DNA of 64,000 bases from Lachnospiraceae bacterium (GTDB taxonomy: Bacteria; Bacillota; Clostridia; Lachnospirales; Lachnospiraceae), in NCBI GenBank assembly GCA_015057525.1, contig SVEE01000001.1, positions 248,001 to 312,000 on the forward strand, in the 5' to 3' direction. The notes under the pieces are model-generated. The model ran no database searches and was not told the origin of the DNA. It worked only from the letters and a program-made list of their open reading frames with translations. The position numbers and the translations under genes were made by a program. This document shows positions 1,348-10,822 of this stretch, in pieces; the stretch's first letter is position 1; the number at the start of each line of letters is the position of its first letter.

Positions 1348-3408
1348 ATGAATTCAAAGGAAATAAAACAAAAGAACAAAACTATATGGAAAAAGATAAT
1401 ATACAAATTTGATGAATTCCTTTCTAAGGGTATGGGAGTTCAGTTTGTGATGCTTATTGTGGCTGCTTTAGTGATTATTGTGATAGCAGGTCTTTTGGTG
1501 GGGATATTTATAGATGGTATTTCGCTGAAAGGTGGAATTTGGGATAGCCTTATGCATCTGCTTGATCAGGGAACTATCACAGGTGATGAGACAAATAATA
1601 AGCTTTACTTAACATTTATGCTTGTGGTCACAGGATTTGGCCTCTTGCTCATGGGTACTATTGTGGGTATCTTAAACAATGCGATTTCTTCCAGACTTGC
1701 TATTTTGGACGAGGGTCTTACTCAGGTTATGGAGAAAGGGCATATTGTTATTATTGGATATGATGATAATTGTTCATGTATAGTAAGACAGCAGATGGAA
1801 TCCAACGAGAACTGGACAGGTAACAGAAGTATAGTGGTTGTTGACAATATTCCTTCTGTTGATATGAAAACAGATTTGCAAGCCAAGCTTAATCTGGGTA
1901 AAAAGCTTAGAACAAAACGTGGTGTTAAGAGGTCTAAGCTTATATATAGAACTGGTAATACTGTAAATGAAAAGACTCTTCAGATGGTTTCTTTAGAGTC
2001 TGCAAAGTCAATCATTATTAATAAGTCTGACGATTTTGAAGTAATTAGAATTTTGCTTGCTATTTCCAAGTATTTCAAGAGAAAAGATATTAATGTTCAT
2101 ATGACAGAAAAGATGCCTAACATTGTAACCTTGATGCACAATGAAGAAAATATTCAGGCGGCAAAAGTTGCAATAGGAATATTTGATGAAAGTGGAAATG
2201 AAATTCAATGTCCGGCAGCAAATAAAATTCAAATTATGTATATGGATAAAATATTGGCCCATATATTTGCGCAAATATGTAGACAGCCAGGTCTTTCTTG
2301 GGTTTTATCGGAGATATTTAGTTATAATAACTCAGAACTTTACATAGAAGATGGGTGTAATGGAACATCCTTGGTTGATATGGGGTTTGTAGGAAAATCT
2401 TTCCGACAGATTTCAAAGGAGCTTAAGACATCCATTGCGCTTGGTATTCAGAAAGCTGATGGTAGAATTCTTCTTAATCCGGATTACGATGAGACAATAT
2501 TTGAGCAGGGTGACAGATTAGTTCATCTTGCCTTAGATGACAATGAAATTAAGCTTAGGAATTCTGGAACATCAGAAGAAGCTTACGGTAAAGCAGTTGT
2601 GGCTGCACAACACGAAGAAGAACCATATCATATTATAATTCTCGGATGGAGTCATGCAATTAAGGATATTGTTATTGATATCAATGACTTTGCAATGCCA
2701 GGCTCTACCATTAAAATTGTATCAGACTATGAAGGCTGTGAAGAGGCTAATAGAGGCATTTTTGATAAGCTAGAAAATGTTTCCATAGAATATATTGATA
2801 AGTCGCCATATCATTGGGAATATGTTTCTAATTTCCTTGATATGGAGAGAGAATTATCAAGCAAAGAAAATAAAAAGATTACTAATATTCTTATTCTTTG
2901 TCAGGATGATGTTGAACGTGAAGAGGCGGATAGAAGAACAGCAGTGTTATTGCTTAATCTTAGAACGTATCTCAATAAATATGATATGGATAACACAATA
3001 AATGTTACTAGTGAAATCAATCAGGTAGAGGATCAGATGCTACTTCAGAGTGCTGAGATTAACGATTTCGTTGTTGGTGATGAGATTGCTAACCGTATTA
3101 TGGTTCAGGTAGCAAATAACACTGACCTTTATCAGGTATTCCGTGACTTATTGAATGATGATGGTTCGGAATTTTATCTTCGTGATATTATAGATTATGT
3201 TGATATCAATAATGACTTTACATTTGAATATGTTTCAGATGTTGCATTAGAAAAACATGAAATAGCACTTGGATGGATTCACTATGAAGAGAACAGTCAG
3301 GATGTAGAAGTAAGACTTAATCCTAAGTGTGAGCCTATATGTATGAGCTTTAAAGGTAATGATTATTTCACAGAAAATGACAAATTAATAGTTTTAGCAG
3401 AGGATTAA
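1348..3408 (+). CDS. CASTOR/POLLUX-type ion channel with RCK (TrkA-N) domains
   Basis: A 686-residue protein with two membrane helices (about 33-56 and 88-109) flanking a short loop with DQGTITGD, placed where CASTOR/POLLUX-type channels have their pore filter. A Rossmann-type nucleotide-binding fold begins at about residue 132 (HIVIIGYDDN) and a second one near residue 427 (HIIILGWSH), followed by a C-terminal TrkA-C-like region. This two-helix plus tandem RCK design is that of plant CASTOR/POLLUX (DMI1) channels and their bacterial relatives, which form cation channels gated by cytoplasmic ligands. The transported ion cannot be read from the sequence. A GGGGGAG ribosome site lies before the ATG. 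The gene appears monocistronic. Confidence 0.8.
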   Translation: MNSKEIKQKNKTIWKKIIYKFDEFLSKGMGVQFVMLIVAALVIIVIAGLLVGIFIDGISLKGGIWDSLMHLLDQGTITGDETNNKLYLTFMLVVTGFGLLLMGTIVGILNNAISSRLAILDEGLTQVMEKGHIVIIGYDDNCSCIVRQQMESNENWTGNRSIVVVDNIPSVDMKTDLQAKLNLGKKLRTKRGVKRSKLIYRTGNTVNEKTLQMVSLESAKSIIINKSDDFEVIRILLAISKYFKRKDINVHMTEKMPNIVTLMHNEENIQAAKVAIGIFDESGNEIQCPAANKIQIMYMDKILAHIFAQICRQPGLSWVLSEIFSYNNSELYIEDGCNGTSLVDMGFVGKSFRQISKELKTSIALGIQKADGRILLNPDYDETIFEQGDRLVHLALDDNEIKLRNSGTSEEAYGKAVVAAQHEEEPYHIIILGWSHAIKDIVIDINDFAMPGSTIKIVSDYEGCEEANRGIFDKLENVSIEYIDKSPYHWEYVSNFLDMERELSSKENKKITNILILCQDDVEREEADRRTAVLLLNLRTYLNKYDMDNTINVTSEINQVEDQMLLQSAEINDFVVGDEIANRIMVQVANNTDLYQVFRDLLNDDGSEFYLRDIIDYVDINNDFTFEYVSDVALEKHEIALGWIHYEENSQDVEVRLNPKCEPICMSFKGNDYFTENDKLIVLAED

Positions 3409-3409
3409 A

Positions 3410-3446
3410 AAATAAGGTGGTTTAATTAACCACCTTATTTTTCTTC
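3410..3446. terminator. Bidirectional terminator between channel and MATE genes
   Basis: A perfect 13-bp inverted repeat (3410-3422 with 3428-3440) with a 5-nt loop, flanked by A and T runs so that it works in both directions. It starts 2 bp after the channel stop codon and contains the stop codon of the convergent MATE gene. Confidence 0.9.
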
Positions 3447-4780
3447 CATATGCCACTTAGATAAAATCCTATGGCCATAATAGCACCGAGACATGTTGCT
3501 GCAGGGATAGAGTATCCAATACCCTTTAATCCCATGTCTAGTGAAAATCCAAGGAATAATGCAAGAGGTATTCTCACTAAAAATGCAGATGTAATGTCGT
3601 TGATCATGGTAATCCAGCCATTGCCTGTACCTGTGAAAACCGCATTGAAGCCTATGATAAATGGAAGGAAAACATATTCAAACGAGAATGCAAAGAGGTA
3701 CACCTTGCCTACATATATGAGATGTTTTTCGGCACCGAAAAGCATAAAAATTTCATCTGGGAAAATGTGAACAATAGTAAAAACTATAGCACACAAACAG
3801 CATGAAAGAATAAGTCCATATCTGGTTGCCTGTTTAACACGTTGGTATTTCTTCGCCCCCATATTCTGTGAAATCATTGCAGATACCGACGAAGTGATTG
3901 CTACGCTAGGAAGAATGGCGAAGCCATTGAATTTATTGACAATTCCGGCTGCTGCTCCGGCAGTAACTCCTCCTATATCGTTGATTAAAGATGTTAAAAT
4001 TAAAAATGAAAAGTTTGTAGCTACAAGCTGAATTGCACTTGGCATACCAACTCCAAGAAGCACCTTGAAACAGCTTTTGTCAAATTTAAAGGATGATATT
4101 TTGAAGTCAAAAACAAAGTTGTGTTTCTTTAGATATATTATACATAAAATCACGGAGAGAGCCTGTGCAATTATGGTTGCAAGAGCAGCTCCTGCGGCTC
4201 CCTTTTCATAATATCCAACGAACAAGAAATCTAAAGCAATATTGGTGACAGAGGCAATAGATATAAACTTAAGTGGAGTTTTACTGTCCCCTAAGCCTCT
4301 CATTATGGCACTTAGTGCGTTGTAGCCGTAGACAAATATAAGTCCCGAAAGACATATGATGAGATAGTCTTTTGCCTCTTTGTAGGACTCAATAGGTGTG
4401 TTCATTAAGTTGAGTATTGGAGTTGTAAAAAACAGCAAAATTGCTGTTATACTAACTGCTAAGGAGAAGAGGGTAATAAGTAGTGTGCTGATAGATTTGT
4501 TTATTTTATCCTCCTGTTTAGCACCAAGATATTGACCAATCATAACTGTTCCACCAGTGGAGAGTCCCATGGCAATATTGGTTACAATCACTATGACCTG
4601 ACTGCTTGTGCTTACGGCAGAAATACTGTTCTCTCCACAAAAGGTACCGAGAATTATCATATCGGCAACACTATATATGGATTGGATTAAATTGCTTACG
4701 AAAAACGGAATTGCAAAAATAATCAGCTGTGACCATACATTTCCAGTTGTTAAATCTTTCTTGAATTTATTGTCTGTCAT
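3422..4780 (-). CDS. MATE family efflux transporter
   Basis: A 452-residue integral membrane protein with about twelve hydrophobic segments in two similar halves. Family marks are the N-terminal LTTGNVWSQLIIFAIPFF stretch, AVSTSSQVI, GLSTGGTVMIGQYLGAK and, in the second half, SAMISQNMGAKK. MATE proteins export drugs or metabolites by Na+ or H+ antiport; the substrate here is unknown. The open frame extends 14 codons further to an ATG at 4822, but that codon overlaps the promoter. AAGGAG lies 7 nt before the ATG at 4780, so the shorter form is chosen. It is transcribed alone, convergent with the channel gene. Confidence 0.92.
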   Translation of the reverse strand: MTDNKFKKDLTTGNVWSQLIIFAIPFFVSNLIQSIYSVADMIILGTFCGENSISAVSTSSQVIVIVTNIAMGLSTGGTVMIGQYLGAKQEDKINKSISTLLITLFSLAVSITAILLFFTTPILNLMNTPIESYKEAKDYLIICLSGLIFVYGYNALSAIMRGLGDSKTPLKFISIASVTNIALDFLFVGYYEKGAAGAALATIIAQALSVILCIIYLKKHNFVFDFKISSFKFDKSCFKVLLGVGMPSAIQLVATNFSFLILTSLINDIGGVTAGAAAGIVNKFNGFAILPSVAITSSVSAMISQNMGAKKYQRVKQATRYGLILSCCLCAIVFTIVHIFPDEIFMLFGAEKHLIYVGKVYLFAFSFEYVFLPFIIGFNAVFTGTGNGWITMINDITSAFLVRIPLALFLGFSLDMGLKGIGYSIPAATCLGAIMAIGFYLSGIWKKNKVVN

Positions 4781-4813
4781 AGAATACTCCTTGATATAAT
4801 TACTAACGGTAAT

Positions 4814-4842
4814 ATTATACAATGCAAAAAGTTTTGTATCAA
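4814..4842 (-). promoter_or_regulatory. Sigma-A promoter for the MATE gene
   Basis: On the minus strand TTGATA (4837-4842), 17 bp, TATAAT (4814-4819). It lies 34 bp upstream of the ATG at 4780 and rules out the longer reading frame start. Confidence 0.8.
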
Positions 4843-6101: not shown

Positions 6102-6156
6102 AAAAAAGAATCAGAAGTAGTGTGCATATGTGTACTACTTCTGATTCTTTTTTGTT
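6102..6156. terminator. Bidirectional terminator, 20-bp stem
   Basis: A perfect 20-bp inverted repeat (6102-6121 with 6134-6153) around a 12-nt loop, with A and T runs at the ends. It terminates the LRR gene on the plus strand and the ABC permease on the minus strand. Confidence 0.92.
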
Positions 6157-8404
6157 ATTCTACGTTCTTAAGAGCATCTTCCAAAGGAATCTTCTTAACC
6201 TGCTTCATCTGAAGGAAGGCGATAATTCCATATGCAATAATTCCTGTGATTGCTATAAGAACAAGACTTTTAACATCTGTCTGGTATGTAAGCCATCCGG
6301 AATATATGAAGAACATAAATTCAACAAGTACAGCCATTATGGAGTCCACCAGCGGTATTGTAAGAATAAGAGAAGCAATTACAACAATAGCGGTGGTGAT
6401 TACATAAAGCTTATTGATTTCTTTCTGCGTGTAACCAAGTATTTTTATCATGGAAATACTTTGGGAATTCTTCTCTATAATAATCTTAGAGAGAAGATAT
6501 ATTACAAGCATAAATATCATTACTCCAACTGCGAAGAATAAGTCCATCATACTTCCCATAGAATCCATAAGCTGTCTTGTGGTCTTGGTTAAGTTGTCTT
6601 TGGTAATAACTGTAGCTACGGTTCTTTCCTCCAAATCTGTAAGCTCTTCGTTGGAAAAATATCCATTGAAATAACCTTCCTCAAAATCAAAATATTCACC
6701 CATTTCGTCCTGTGGCATAAATATTGCAATTCCTGTTGGATAGTCGTAAATTCCAGTCACTTTAAAATCATATTCTTTGTCAGAAAATTCTTCTTTGAGG
6801 GTGATTGTATCACCTACAGCCACGTCATATTTATCTGAATATGCGCTAGATACATAAATATCATTTTCTTTGAAAGATATATTGATATACTGGCTATCAT
6901 CCTCAATACCATATATGCTTACAGTTTCCACAAAATTTCTTATTTCAAGTGTCTTGAGAGAATAAGCGGTATAGGTCTCAGCATCTTCGTTTTCTGTTTC
7001 GAGAGGAGCTTTAAGAATATATTGATATTTGCATATCATGTTATCAATAATATCATCTCCGTAGTTTGTGAGTATGGCAGGAAATGCAGTGCCGAAAACC
7101 ATAATAATATTTGCAAGGAATATACCAATAATTATAGTAATGTAGTTTGGCATATTCTGGAAGATAATTCGAAGTCTAAAACGCTTCATTATCTTAATTT
7201 TAGTGTTAAGCTTAAAGGCTTTTTTCTTCTTTTTCTTGCCGATGTCACGACGGATAAATCTAAGTGGTGACAACTTGAATTTGTTAACAAGAATTAGGAA
7301 ATTAATCAGGAACATTATTATAAGAGGGATGACTGTAGTCTTTACAAATGCATCAGCATTAAATAAAAGTTCATAAGTAGTGAGACAGTAGCTGTTGTAA
7401 TACATGTCTGCAGCATAGTCCTCAATAACTGTGTATCCTAATATGTTTCCCATGATTGCCGCTGTAAATGTTACAAGCATTGGCATGGCGAGATAATGTC
7501 TTATGAGTTCACCTTTTGAATAGCCTGATGCTCTGAGGGTTCCTATAACTGTAGCTTCCTTAGCAATGGTGTTGCTGGTTGTTATTGCAAAAATGAATGC
7601 GATAATAGCGATTAACAAGTAGAGGAATACACTGAAAATAACAGAATCTCTACCCATGTCGTCTCCTGTAAAATGAATGGCTTGATTATTGTAAGCAGGG
7701 ATAAAGCCTTCAAGTGGAGCCAATTTGTAAAGTTCTTCAAGAAGGTCTTCACTCATTTTTTTTGCTTCGATATCGTCAGCAGGTGCAACATCATATTCCC
7801 AAGAATAGCAGTAGTGAATATGTGTATCACCGATATTTTCAAAGCCTTCCTGTGTAACAACACCTACACCGAATTTCATTGTATCGAACATTGTGTCTGT
7901 AGGGCTTTGGAAAAGGGCACTATAGTCAGTAAATGCAACTAAACCACATATTTTAAGTTCTTTTCCAGAAACAGAGATTGTGTCACCGATTTCCAGATTA
8001 TTTTTAATTGCATGAATTCTGTCTATGGCAATTTCATTTGCATCCGCAGGAAATTCGCCTGACATAAGACATACTCGGTTAATGTCAGTACGGTTTATGA
8101 AGATTCGAAGAGTAGTGTCTATAGTTGTGGTTTCCTCAAGATAGAAGTTTTCGTATACTGTGAGCCCTTCTTCCTCGATTTTCTCGATTAAAACATCATC
8201 AGCTTTAGCCGTTAATTCAAAGTTACCATCCTCTATGTTATATTTCTCAAAGCTTTCATCAAATGCTTTTTGCATACTGTGGCTGGCAACGAGAAATCCT
8301 GAAACAACGGATATCATTGCAGTGATAAAGATAAATAATATTATGTATTTTCCTAGTTCGCTTTTTATTTCTCGTGGAAATCGTTTGTTAAGTGGATTTT
8401 TCAT
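6155..8404 (-). CDS. ABC transporter permease, FtsX/MacB-type
   Basis: A 749-residue protein with an N-terminal helix (about 19-42), a large external domain, three helices at about 250-370, a fourth at about 415-440 beginning the second half, another external domain, and three C-terminal helices. This is the duplicated FtsX-like (DUF214) permease layout used by transporters that handle lipids, lipoproteins or peptides. The segment GTLRASGYSKGELIRHYL after the second helix group is the coupling region facing the ATPase. The ATG is preceded by AAGGAGGT. Only 14 bp separate it from the ATPase gene, so the two form one operon, probably under the upstream riboswitch. Confidence 0.9.
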   Translation of the reverse strand: MKNPLNKRFPREIKSELGKYIILFIFITAMISVVSGFLVASHSMQKAFDESFEKYNIEDGNFELTAKADDVLIEKIEEEGLTVYENFYLEETTTIDTTLRIFINRTDINRVCLMSGEFPADANEIAIDRIHAIKNNLEIGDTISVSGKELKICGLVAFTDYSALFQSPTDTMFDTMKFGVGVVTQEGFENIGDTHIHYCYSWEYDVAPADDIEAKKMSEDLLEELYKLAPLEGFIPAYNNQAIHFTGDDMGRDSVIFSVFLYLLIAIIAFIFAITTSNTIAKEATVIGTLRASGYSKGELIRHYLAMPMLVTFTAAIMGNILGYTVIEDYAADMYYNSYCLTTYELLFNADAFVKTTVIPLIIMFLINFLILVNKFKLSPLRFIRRDIGKKKKKKAFKLNTKIKIMKRFRLRIIFQNMPNYITIIIGIFLANIIMVFGTAFPAILTNYGDDIIDNMICKYQYILKAPLETENEDAETYTAYSLKTLEIRNFVETVSIYGIEDDSQYINISFKENDIYVSSAYSDKYDVAVGDTITLKEEFSDKEYDFKVTGIYDYPTGIAIFMPQDEMGEYFDFEEGYFNGYFSNEELTDLEERTVATVITKDNLTKTTRQLMDSMGSMMDLFFAVGVMIFMLVIYLLSKIIIEKNSQSISMIKILGYTQKEINKLYVITTAIVVIASLILTIPLVDSIMAVLVEFMFFIYSGWLTYQTDVKSLVLIAITGIIAYGIIAFLQMKQVKKIPLEDALKNVE

Positions 8405-8418
8405 GTTGGACTACCTCC

Positions 8419-9117
8419 TTACCAGTCAAGATCCATAGCTGAAATCTTTTCTTCGTTGAGATAGTTTTTGCGAATAACACCATCTCTTAATTTTACAACA
8501 CGGTCTGCCATGTTTTTGATAGCGTCATTGTGTGTAACCATAATAACGGTGTTACCGTATTTTTTATTGACATCTTCAATAAGTTTTAATATATCTTTTG
8601 ATGTGTTGAAATCGAGAGCTCCAGTAGGCTCATCGCAGAGTAGAATATCCGGATTTTTGACAATTGCTCGTCCGATAGCAGTTCTTTGTTGCTGGCCACC
8701 TGATAACTGATTAGGTAATTTATGACGATGCTCGTATAGACCAAGAGTTTTAAGAATATCATCAACATCAAGTGGGTCGTCACTTAAGTAGGCACCAACC
8801 TCGATGTTTTCTTTAATGTTTAAGTTAGGAATAAGATTATACATTTGGAAAATATAACCAAGATGCTTTCTTCTGTATGCAGTAAGGGCTTTTTCGTTCA
8901 TATCCACTGTTTTTTCCCCGTTTATGGATATGTAACCACTGTCTGCGTCATCAATACCTCCTATGATGTTAAGAAGAGTAGATTTGCCTGAGCCTGAGGG
9001 GCCGAGAAGTACACAGATTTCTCCTTTTTCAAGCTCTAAATCGATTCCCTTTAAAACATCGACTCTGCTTTCTCCTTCTCCAAAATGTTTTTTGATTCCG
9101 TTAATTTGTAAGAACAT
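8419..9117 (-). CDS. ABC transporter ATP-binding protein (LolD/MacB class)
   Basis: A 232-residue ATPase. Walker A GPSGSGKST is at about residues 38-46, the Q-loop in IFQMYNLIPNLN, the signature LSGGQQQR at about 138-145, Walker B DILLCDEPTGALD after that, and the switch histidine in VMVTHND. The length and the GALD after Walker B match partners of FtsX-type permeases. It is the first gene of a two-gene operon and starts 27 bp after the leader terminator. AAAGGATG precedes the ATG. The transported substrate is not evident. The manganese-type riboswitch in front suggests a link to metal stress, which is an inference. Confidence 0.93.
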   Translation of the reverse strand: MFLQINGIKKHFGEGESRVDVLKGIDLELEKGEICVLLGPSGSGKSTLLNIIGGIDDADSGYISINGEKTVDMNEKALTAYRRKHLGYIFQMYNLIPNLNIKENIEVGAYLSDDPLDVDDILKTLGLYEHRHKLPNQLSGGQQQRTAIGRAIVKNPDILLCDEPTGALDFNTSKDILKLIEDVNKKYGNTVIMVTHNDAIKNMADRVVKLRDGVIRKNYLNEEKISAMDLDW

Positions 9118-9144
9118 AATTTATCATCCTTTCTTTTTTGGTAA

Positions 9145-9180
9145 CAAAAAAACCAAGTATGCTATGTTGCTATACTTGGT
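9145..9180 (-). terminator. Leader terminator of the riboswitch
   Basis: On the minus strand a perfect 9-bp stem (9152-9160 with 9172-9180) with an 11-nt loop is followed by seven T. It sits between the aptamer and the ATPase start. A leader segment (9198-9204) is exactly complementary to seven bases of the terminator's 5' side (9169-9175), and a second one (9211-9216) to six bases (9167-9172), so alternative pairing is possible. Confidence 0.88.
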
Positions 9181-9219
9181 AAAAAAATAGACTACACGTA
9201 TAGCTTTAAATAGCAATAC

Positions 9220-9300
9220 ATGAGTCTCGTTATTTAAGACAAGCCAGGCTAATAAGCCAGGATGTTGACTTGCCACACTTTCGTGCCACTACTCCCTCAT
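9220..9300 (-). ncRNA. yybP-ykoY (manganese) riboswitch aptamer candidate
   Basis: Read on the minus strand, the aptamer opens with P1 strand ATGAG followed by GGAGTAG. It continues with a hairpin containing CACGAAAGTG, then GTCAACATCCTGGC and a GCCTGGCTTGTC return strand, and closes with CGAGA followed by CTCAT, which pairs with the opening ATGAG. GGAGTAG after P1, GTCAA in the middle and CRAGA just before the closing P1 strand are the conserved marks of the yybP-ykoY family, which senses Mn2+. The gene-controlling part is the terminator at 9145-9180. A consensus promoter lies upstream. This was found by eye; a covariance search against RF00080 would settle it. Confidence 0.82.
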
Positions 9301-9324
9301 AGGAATGTTTTGTTGTTGTGTCTT

Positions 9325-9353
9325 AATATAATTGCTTTGGAAAGTTTTGTCAA
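9325..9353 (-). promoter_or_regulatory. Strong sigma-A promoter for the riboswitch leader
   Basis: On the minus strand TTGACA (9348-9353), 17 bp, TATATT (9325-9330). Transcription would start near 9318, about 18 nt before the aptamer and about 200 nt before the ATPase start codon. Confidence 0.85.
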
Positions 9354-9439
9354 TATACTTTTTGAGAAAAATATCAAATTTAATGTTTTGAGTAATTGCT
9401 ATTTGATTAAAAATCGATTAATATGTCTATGGGGGTTAA

Positions 9440-9613
9440 GTTGTTATATCTGATAATTCATTTTTACAGCAGTCTTCTTTGAATACCATTAATTCAGAGA
9501 CATTTTCCTTTGAAACTACACATTTCCTTACTATTACTGGTAACATCGAAAGAATAGGCGACCACGCCTTAAATATAGCTCAGGCGTATGCTAAGATTGC
9601 CATGAGGGCGTAA
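9440..9613 (+). pseudogene. Remnant of a PhoU-domain (Na/Pi cotransporter-type) protein
   Basis: A 57-codon frame with no start codon follows an in-frame TAA at 9437 and ends at TAA 9611-9613. It contains NIERIGDHALNIA, the hallmark of the last PhoU helix as found in PhoU and at the C-terminus of NptA/PNaS-type Na+/phosphate cotransporters. The preceding residues (ETTHFLTITG) also fit that helix bundle. No upstream part of such a gene is visible in any frame, so this is a 3' remnant of a deleted gene. It lies directly before the fliB-like gene. Confidence 0.75.
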
Positions 9614-9628
9614 AAAAGAGGAACAAAA

Positions 9629-10822
9629 ATGAAGTACAGAATGCCAGATTATTATAACCAGTTCAAATGTATAGCGGACAAATGTCCTGATACATGTTGC
9701 GCTGGTTGGGATATTGTTATTGATGATAAGTCCATGAAAAAGTATAAGTCCTTTGAAGGTGACTTAAAGGACTATGTTATGGGAAATATTAATGAGAGTG
9801 AGCAGGTTTTCAAAAGATGTGGAGCGCGGTGTTCATTTCTTAATGATAACAATCTCTGTGATTTATACACGAGAGCAGGGGAAGAAAGTTTGTGTAAAAC
9901 CTGCTTTAGATATCCAAGGCATTTTGAAGAGTACGGTGAGCTTGTAGAAGCTGCCCTTTCTATATCATGTCCTGTTGCTGCAAAGATGATTATTGATAGA
10001 AAAGCAAAAGACCGTTTTCTGATTAAAGCTAATGATAAAAAAACTCCACGTGATAAAGAGGTGGATAAAAAACTGTTAGAGGTTTTACTCAGGGTTAGAA
10101 AAACAATATTTAACATAGTGAGCAACAGGAAATGTGGTGTCGGGGAAAGAACTAAGGCAATCATGAAATTAGGACAGGATATACAGCCTGTTTTATATGA
10201 TTATGAGAGATTAGGATTAAAGAAATATATAAAGGCAAGCCGTGATGGCCTCCTTAATAATATTGAGGAAATAAGAAGTAAATATGATGATTTAAATACT
10301 GAAGATGCTGTTAAAGTTAAAGCTGTTGGGCTTTCTGGCTTGGCAGAAACTTCCATAACCAAAATCAAGAGGGACTTTTTCGAAGTGTTATCAGGACTTG
10401 AGAAGATAAATGATGACTGGGAGGAAGTTGTAAATCATATAATTAATGTTTTGTATGTGGATCTGTCTGATGAAGAATATAAAAAATTATCAGATGAATT
10501 TGATGTGTATATGAAAGATAGACAATATGAGTATGAGCATATTCTTAACTATTTCTTGTATACTTATTTCCTTGGTAGTGTGTACGACTATAACGCACTT
10601 GCCATGATTAAAATGTCAGTAATAAGCACTATAATAATAAGAGAAATGGGAATGACAGTCTGGCTTGATAATGACAAAGAATTTTCTGTGGATGAACAGA
10701 TAAAGGTGGCATACACATATTCAAGGCAGATAGAACACTCAGATAATAACCTAATGTGTATGGAAGGCTTAATGACGGCTCATCCTGTGTTTGGGGATGA
10801 AAAAATACTCAGTGTACTTTAA
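9629..10822 (+). CDS. fliB: FliB-type flagellin lysine N-methylase
   Basis: A 397-residue cysteine-rich protein. The N-terminal half has the YkgJ/FliB cysteine pattern: KCPDTCCAGW near residues 18-27, RCGARCSFLN, LCDLY, SLCKTCFRYPR and SISCPVA, ligands likely to hold a metal cluster. FliB methylates lysines of flagellin in Salmonella, and homologues are common in motile and non-motile Clostridia. No flagellar gene is in this window, so the substrate is uncertain. The start follows AGAGGAAC. It lies 15 bp after the PhoU remnant. No clear promoter was seen between that remnant and the divergent riboswitch promoter, so its transcription start is unknown. Confidence 0.85.
   Translation: MKYRMPDYYNQFKCIADKCPDTCCAGWDIVIDDKSMKKYKSFEGDLKDYVMGNINESEQVFKRCGARCSFLNDNNLCDLYTRAGEESLCKTCFRYPRHFEEYGELVEAALSISCPVAAKMIIDRKAKDRFLIKANDKKTPRDKEVDKKLLEVLLRVRKTIFNIVSNRKCGVGERTKAIMKLGQDIQPVLYDYERLGLKKYIKASRDGLLNNIEEIRSKYDDLNTEDAVKVKAVGLSGLAETSITKIKRDFFEVLSGLEKINDDWEEVVNHIINVLYVDLSDEEYKKLSDEFDVYMKDRQYEYEHILNYFLYTYFLGSVYDYNALAMIKMSVISTIIIREMGMTVWLDNDKEFSVDEQIKVAYTYSRQIEHSDNNLMCMEGLMTAHPVFGDEKILSVL

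Follow-up and report, generated by a model that had tools for sequence, protein, structure and literature searches.

We consider it likely, with a probability of about 0.74, that a compact subclass of the yybP-ykoY riboswitch acts as a Mn2+ ON-switch that controls a two-gene type VII ABC system of metal homeostasis. This reading is built on observed features, namely the sequence elements of the leader, their conservation and covariation, the gene company of the aptamer, its pairing with ABC genes and a second box in relatives; from these we infer that Mn2+ is the ligand, that the switch works in the ON direction, that iron represses at the box, and what purpose the system has. The elements found in the window, which is the whole stretch of 64,000 nucleotides that was analysed, are as follows.

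9325..9353, minus strand: putative promoter TTGACA-17-TATATT (TTGACA 9353-9348, TATATT 9330-9325), with 11 of 12 consensus matches
9218..9304, minus strand: compact yybP-ykoY-type aptamer (R1 match of 93.8 bits, partial RF00080 match, covariation)
9296..9300, minus strand: ATGAG, 5' strand of the predicted P1 switch helix (P1 cells paired at 100% in alignment A3 and 99.3% in A6)
9289..9295, minus strand: L1 core GGAGTAG, conserved across the family aptamers
9269-9265, minus strand: GTCAA motif, read in the sequence
9259..9265, minus strand: predicted L3 metal-site loop ACAUCCU, with 9263 as the equivalent of A48 (X. oryzae) and A41 (L. lactis) (excerpt of PMC6754395)
9229-9225, minus strand: CGAGA motif, read in the sequence
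9220..9224, minus strand: CTCAT, 3' strand of the predicted P1 switch helix, also used by the competing hairpin
9216..9227, minus strand: AGACTCATGTAT, 5' arm of the predicted competing hairpin, overlapping the P1 3' strand (RNA folding)
9189..9201, minus strand: ATACGTGTAGTCT, 3' arm of the predicted competing hairpin (cognate versus swapped arm pairing)
9198..9204, minus strand: GCTATAC, putative antiterminator strand, complementary to GTATAGC at 9175-9169
9146..9180, minus strand: intrinsic terminator with T-run, stem ACCAAGTAT (9180-9172) plus ATACTTGGT (9160-9152)
8419..9117, minus strand: ABC ATPase, 232 aa (PF00005, E 3.4e-35)
6155..8404, minus strand: FtsX-type permease, 749 aa (PF02687, E 7e-20, two FtsX stretches)

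All the leader elements named in the preliminary description were found at their places in the sequence. The promoter stands 24 nt upstream of P1, a placement that counts in its favour; the match alone is weak, as the scanned region holds 2 promoter-like sites against 2.6 expected from shuffles. P1 spans 81 nt from ATGAG to CTCAT, and the aptamer consists of P1, P2 and a long P3 with an inner helix, the fourth junction arm being absent. The 64-kb window holds a single instance of the pattern GGGAGTAG..GTCAA..ACGAGA, which none of 100 shuffles contains, and the aptamer stretch alone folds only slightly better than shuffles (z -1.43, with 16 of 200 shuffles equally good). The terminator (-12.6 kcal/mol, seven T at 9152-9146) was formed both by RNA folding and by a hairpin-plus-T search, and is missing from the output of a simple terminator scan. 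As described earlier, it precedes the ATPase start, with 28 nt rather than 27 between the T-run and the ATG at 9117. The two leader segments that had been called complementary to the terminator could also be identified, since both GCTATAC (9204-9198) and TTGCTAT (9216-9210) are complementary to its 5' arm. A FliB flagellin lysine-N-methylase gene lies at 9629-10822 on the plus strand, divergent from the aptamer promoter.

Rfam gave no hit at gathering score over the whole window, and a search of 801 nt was likewise empty up to an E value of 1. When 121 nt were searched alone, RF00080 matched the P3/L3 part at 9272-9240 with 17.7 bits, below its curated cut-off of 45; a better match to another Rfam family was sought in the same search, and the only one besides RF00080 reached 9.5 bits. 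The earlier identification as a Mn2+-type aptamer is borne out by the core and the gene company, while the RF00080 hit at gathering score, without which it was said to fall, was not obtained. In the same genus, copies linked to mntP likewise fall short of the cut-off (25.9 and 22.1 bits versus 45), the mntP-linked copy L007 matches RF00080 with 27.3 bits over positions 14-177, and 0 of 397 family genomes pass the cut-off (RF00080 reaches E 0.01 in 15 of them). The weak scores of the same-genus mntP copies and the count of 0/397 suggest that a compact form accounts for the RF00080 miss better than absence of an aptamer.

This compact form is seen at the junction. Known yybP-ykoY structures have a four-way junction (excerpt of PMC6754395), whereas three helices meet here, and the joint from P3 to the P1 3' strand is 13 nt in 88 of 90 aptamers and 14-15 nt in 2 (R1 alignment), which leaves no space for a further hairpin; R1 was built from compact forms, so forms with the extra arm would score low. 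Otherwise the likeness to the yybP-ykoY Mn2+ riboswitches of L. lactis yoaB, X. oryzae and E. coli mntP is close: they have in common L1 GGGAGUAG, the L3 ACA core with the sensing adenosine, and P1 as the switch helix, and the targets of the subclass likewise include mntP, P-type ATPase and UPF0016 genes. What sets the window copy apart, besides the 13-nt joint in place of the fourth arm and the sub-threshold RF00080 score, is its target, a type VII ABC system. Judged by score and junction, the sequence is not that of a standard RF00080 member, while its core, predicted switch helix and gene company suggest that it works like one.

For the wider family we used R1, a covariance model built from 15 sequences, ABC- and mntP-linked; its score of 93.8 bits in the window concerns a sequence that is itself in the training set. 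R1 matched 194 of 397 genomes sampled from the family (E up to 1e-4), in scans which, for both R1 and RF00080, applied stricter filters and scored few candidates, R1 being tuned to this group. In a large bacterial family, riboswitches for Mn2+ thus seem to have escaped annotation (194/397 for R1 versus 0/397 for RF00080). Within the genus, R1 matches (E up to 0.01) were found in 23 of 37 genomes, two of them weak, and the core pattern ending in CGAGA in 14 of 37, including our own genome, where the window aptamer is the sole R1 site. Among 90 family aptamers, L1 reads GGAGUAG in 77, GGAGUAA in 12 and AGAGUAA in 1. The third L3 residue is A in all 80 seven-nt loops, the remaining 10 loops having eight nt. 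The commonest loop, ACAUACU (40/90), is that of the X. oryzae structure, and the Mn2+-sensing adenosine is A48 in X. oryzae and A41 in L. lactis (excerpt of PMC6754395). The window aptamer carries this L1/L3 core with the adenosine, in a loop (ACAUCCU) found in 8 of the 90, 2 of them mntP-linked.

The helices covary. In alignment A6 (89 distinct rows, fitted to R1), 98.3% of cells are paired and 14 of 21 pairs have two-sided changes, with a covariation of 0.530 versus 0.229 in shuffles; none of 500 shuffles reached this value, and sliding the pairs gave no more than 0.148. The MAFFT alignment A3 gave 96.2% paired cells and a covariation of 0.363 versus 0.210, and the ABC-linked set (26 rows, one of them mntP-linked) gave 97.2% paired cells with two-sided changes at 12 of 21 pairs. 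Further pair types in the small alignments were in no excess over shuffles (500/500 shuffles as high in A3, 484/500 in the 26-row set).

The genes behind the aptamer point to its ligand. Downstream of 89 R1 sites we found mntP at 60 (55 in a first pass and 5 on re-examining unplaced loci), a Na/Ca-type antiporter at 13, an ABC ATPase with a relative of the FtsX permease at 8, a P-type ATPase at 4, and UPF0016, mgtE and a Na/alanine symporter at 1 each, a contig end cutting off 1. This census comprises 29 top-scoring loci (own site excluded) and 60 picked by hand lower in the R1 list; the gene was taken as the longest open frame of at least 90 aa starting within 700 nt, seven unplaced loci were re-examined, and one to two type proteins per class, the ABC class excepted, were confirmed with Pfam. 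Since the training set of R1 consisted of ABC- and mntP-linked copies, the census is biased toward such copies. The compact subclass thus precedes Mn2+ exporter genes in most cases counted, the window copy preceding the ABC pair, and the view that an FtsX-type ABC system is an unusual target for a Mn2+-type aptamer agrees with these counts (ABC 8/89, mntP 60/89). At 14 pattern sites of the genus, the downstream gene was an ABC ATPase in 9 (including L002, known by its first residues before a contig end), mntP in 4 and a Na/Ca-type antiporter in 1. In the genus genomes G002 and G018 the R1 site precedes an antiporter and UPF0016, and in G025 UPF0016 follows the R1 site at a distance of about 1.2 kb; no MntP match was found in these three genomes. 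Given the company of mntP and cation-transporter genes, the ligand is likely to be Mn2+.

More distant ABC ATPases were also seen behind R1-type aptamers, at L193, L227 and L095 (G023), with 50%, 44% and 52% (over 62 residues) identity to the window ATPase; the Mn switch would thus have been joined to FtsX-type ABC genes repeatedly, or kept through deep divergence. An R1-type aptamer at 1501-1589 of L209 precedes an mgtE gene, an unexpected target.

The pairing of aptamer and ABC genes is conserved, as had been proposed as a check in the preliminary description. A permease ortholog of at least 57% identity is present in 12 of 37 genomes of the genus, and the aptamer precedes the ABC ATPase in all 12; in G003, G019 and G020 it is a diverged aptamer before orthologs of 57-58% identity. 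More widely, named genomes supplied 150 homologous loci, of which 80 were kept, and the aptamer precedes the ATPase in 24 of these 80. In a 72-permease tree, the aptamer label needs 3 changes, versus 20.4 with shuffled labels, and one clade, with records titled as Lachnospiraceae and Oscillospiraceae, is aptamer-bearing in 18 of 18 rows (support 91). This tree excludes 9 of 81 permeases (L106, L107, L120, L125, L130, L144, L149, L165 and L185) as fragments, or for short upstream sequence, an ATPase not found or an in-frame stop (L107). The literature covered, which does not extend to the target lists of Dambach 2015 and Price 2015, contains no link between a Mn2+ riboswitch and an FtsX-type ABC system.

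The putative expression platform is shared as well. Across leaders, the P1 3' strand lies within AGACTCATGTAT, which is complementary to the later ATACATGgAGTCT, and the core of this later arm, GCTATAC, is complementary to GTATAGC of the terminator. A hairpin stands before a T-run in 31 of 31 leaders (arms cut by rule). Their antiterminator arms pair better with cognate than with swapped partners (mean -14.7 versus -10.4 kcal/mol, a difference matched by none of 20000 permutations); the pair of the window leader itself does not stand out, ranking 15th among the 31 of its row. Hand-cut subsets of the 31 behaved similarly, with -13.6 versus -9.3 kcal/mol for the antiterminator arms of 17 leaders and -12.2 versus -10.2 for the competing hairpin of 14 (0 of 20000 permutations as good in either). 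As the leaders are related, these arm tests show covariation only. In the unbound fold of the window leader, the competing hairpin and the terminator are both present. The terminator is still in the MFE fold when the aptamer is forced, so the ON state would need kinetic control or an order of folding.

The usual sense of these riboswitches is Mn-ON, with P1.1 as the switch helix (excerpt of PMC11087558), and the leader layout, as predicted from sequence, fits this sense with an added hairpin stage. When Mn2+ is absent, the P1 3' strand would be captured by the hairpin 9227-9216 / 9201-9189; the same hairpin would mask GCTATAC, the terminator would form and the ABC genes would be off. With Mn2+ at L1/L3, P1 would be held and the competing hairpin would be unable to close fully, leaving GCTATAC to pair with the terminator 5' arm and transcription to continue into the ABC genes. 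The P1 3' strand would here compete with a separate hairpin, whereas in L. lactis it competes directly with the terminator (excerpt of PMC11087558).

A different putative control was found in relatives that lack the aptamer, which goes beyond the interpretation given in the preliminary description. The box GTTAG-N6-CTAAC, or the box minus one end base, occurs within 150 nt of the ATPase in 30 of 47 aptamer-less homologous loci and is missing in 17, against a background of 0.011 sites per 150 nt in the rest of the same loci. These 47 were drawn from 56 aptamer-less loci, leaving out those with upstream sequence missing or too short (L106, L120, L125, L130, L144, L149 and L165), L185 (ATPase not found) and L167. 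In the 23 aptamer loci checked (L107 left out), the 400 nt next to the ATPase hold no box. A box 88-121 nt before the aptamer was present in 4 of 24 aptamer loci (L146, L155, L159 and L181; 200 nt searched), and these may serve feoA, since L146 has a divergent feoA at the box. Fisher tests, in which kinship is ignored, gave 5.6e-8 for 0/23 and 1.7e-4 for 4/24. Among distant homologs in the genus, 3 of 16 have the box and 13 have none. TetR-like inverted repeats were considered as the common control and found at only some loci (L129, L140 and L178), GTTAG-N6-CTAAC being the common one.

The box keeps company with iron genes. Our own genome has four full boxes, of which three stand at the feoA-feoA-feoB operon (G000:C6:33676-34325; L289, L301), which has a divergent DtxR-type regulator gene with iron-dependent repressor domains. 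At L114, feoB and a DtxR-type regulator lie upstream of the ABC genes, and elsewhere the box adjoins flavodoxin, ApbE, ZIP and another ABC gene. Reading 18 loci around 69 box sites by eye also showed some sites by genes without a visible iron link (L296, L299 and L302). Counts of the full box versus a reversed control were 4:1 in our own genome, 3:5 in Coprococcus catus and 5:1 in A. hallii, with 18:2 in A. ruminis, 20:0 in Ruminococcus FC2018 and 19:0 in R. albus 8; the excess is clear in the last three and absent in C. catus. The box presumably resembles the IdeR box: as with DtxR/IdeR-type iron boxes, TTAG/CTAA half sites stand at iron-gene promoters with a DtxR-type regulator adjoining, the half sites of the putative box here being six bases apart. 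We read it as a candidate iron-responsive operator of a DtxR-type regulator; it may bind another regulator.

With the aptamer in some loci and an iron-type box in aptamer-less relatives, the ABC system looks metal-regulated either way. Repression by iron would put the ABC genes on at low Fe and the riboswitch would put them on at high Mn, both of which amount to a high Mn:Fe ratio. The system would then be induced at high Mn:Fe, through the riboswitch in this clade and, in many relatives, through an iron box of the DtxR type. This would link Mn and Fe to a widespread FtsX-type ABC family that has no assigned role, making it a candidate component of metal balance whose role is testable.

With an ABC ATPase and a permease carrying FtsX domains, the pair belongs to type VII (MacB/FtsX). 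The AlphaFold model of the permease (pLDDT 80.9, pTM 0.73) has eight long helices, which we take to form two units of four helices that each carry an extracellular domain. Its best solved fold matches are E. coli YbbAP, BceAB, LolCDE, HrtBA, YtrEF, a pneumococcal non-canonical ABC transporter and MacB, and the predicted fold is of type VII (YbbAP/BceAB/HrtBA-like). More specific assignments were not obtained: the ATPase reaches 197.6 bits versus 966 for MacB of the MacAB pump (a fused protein), 192.9 versus 307.75 for LolD and 180.7 versus 264.85 for FtsE, it is below the cut-off in all 25 NCBIfam families shown, the permease has no NCBIfam match, and the MacB_PCD domain stays below its cut-off (25.8 versus 27 bits). 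Compared with E. coli YbbAP, identity is 12-13% and the rmsd 7.6-10.7, and no TesA-like gene is among the seven proteins scanned around the ABC pair. Compared with the HrtBA heme exporter, identity is 14%, and the HrtB chain has 343 residues where the permease has 749 with two such units. The invariant residues of the permease include many acidic ones.

No MntP or UPF0016 match was found in our own genome (completeness 97.3%), nor in G016, which also has the aptamer-ABC pair and is 87% complete. Possible carriers of Mn2+ in our own genome are one CDF protein, two P-type ATPases and two Na/Ca-type antiporters. A strict exclusion between MntP and the ABC system in the genus was considered and ruled out, as MntP was matched in 10 of the 12 genomes that carry the aptamer-ABC pair, which argues against the ABC system being a simple stand-in for MntP.

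Could the aptamer stand before the ABC operon by chance, with no role there? The missing Rfam hit at threshold would suit this view, which is scarcely credible in the face of an aptamer kept throughout the permease clade with a support of 91, and of helices and platform that covary. More serious, and still improbable, is the idea that the ABC-linked aptamers are variants for an altered ligand (Fe2+, Mg2+ or another divalent metal), leaving the ABC genes outside Mn2+ control. A review deems it likely that some yybP-type RNAs sense other divalent metals (excerpt of PMC7266159), the window loop ACAUCCU departs from ACAUACU of X. oryzae, and R1 sites do precede mgtE (1) and a Na/Ca-type antiporter (13). 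However, ACAUCCU also occurs in 2 mntP-linked census aptamers, other ABC-linked loops read ACAUACU, ACAUCAU, ACAUACC or UCAUCAC, the sensing A is kept in every seven-nt loop (80/80), and antiporter operons that continue with UPF0016 point back to Mn2+.

What the ABC system moves is a separate matter. That it exports Mn2+ itself, substituting for a lost MntP, is rather unlikely in our view. The lack of MntP and UPF0016 matches in our own genome and G016 agrees with it, as do the other targets of the same aptamer, which are mostly cation transporters; against it stand the MntP of 10 of the 12 pair genomes and the incompleteness of G016. Type VII ABC systems act by mechanotransmission, and among the fold matches we know of none that moves Mn2+ and of no ion path. 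YbbAP is held to extract hydrophobic compounds (excerpt of PMC12646458), and an iron box that puts the genes on at low iron would be odd for a pure Mn exporter, an oddity softened by E. coli mntP, which is also under Fur besides its riboswitch (excerpt of PMC11647493). An action on the envelope, in lipoprotein, lipid or peptide stress, with Mn2+ as a proxy signal, seems equally doubtful: the best fold matches include YbbAP, BceAB and LolCDE, and FtsX proteins commonly serve the envelope, but two separate metal-type controls, riboswitch and box, link this one family to metals, and no constant neighbour gene was seen by eye at 16 loci. Within the preferred reading of a Mn2+ ON-switch for metal homeostasis, the candidate cargo that we favour is either a metal-linked compound associated with the membrane (HrtBA-like) or Mn2+. 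It is possible, and we propose it tentatively, that this type VII ABC family of Lachnospiraceae and Oscillospiraceae is a dedicated and as yet unnamed part of the Mn/Fe balance, switched on at high Mn by the riboswitch and at low Fe by a DtxR-type box in sister lines, which stands in for MntP here and moves Mn2+ or a metal-bound membrane compound. We know of no other type VII ABC system under Mn2+ control, and this one would then be the first known to us.

Three aptamer-less ABC operons (L142, L157 and L171, at about 7310-9500) continue with a gene for a large protein of 594-721 aa with a signal-like start and no Pfam match, a possible partner of the permease. In the window, a MATE efflux gene (3422-4822, minus strand) lies downstream of the ABC genes with two opposite-strand genes between, and a CASTOR/Pollux-type ion channel protein is encoded by an opposite-strand neighbour at 1348-3408 (plus strand).
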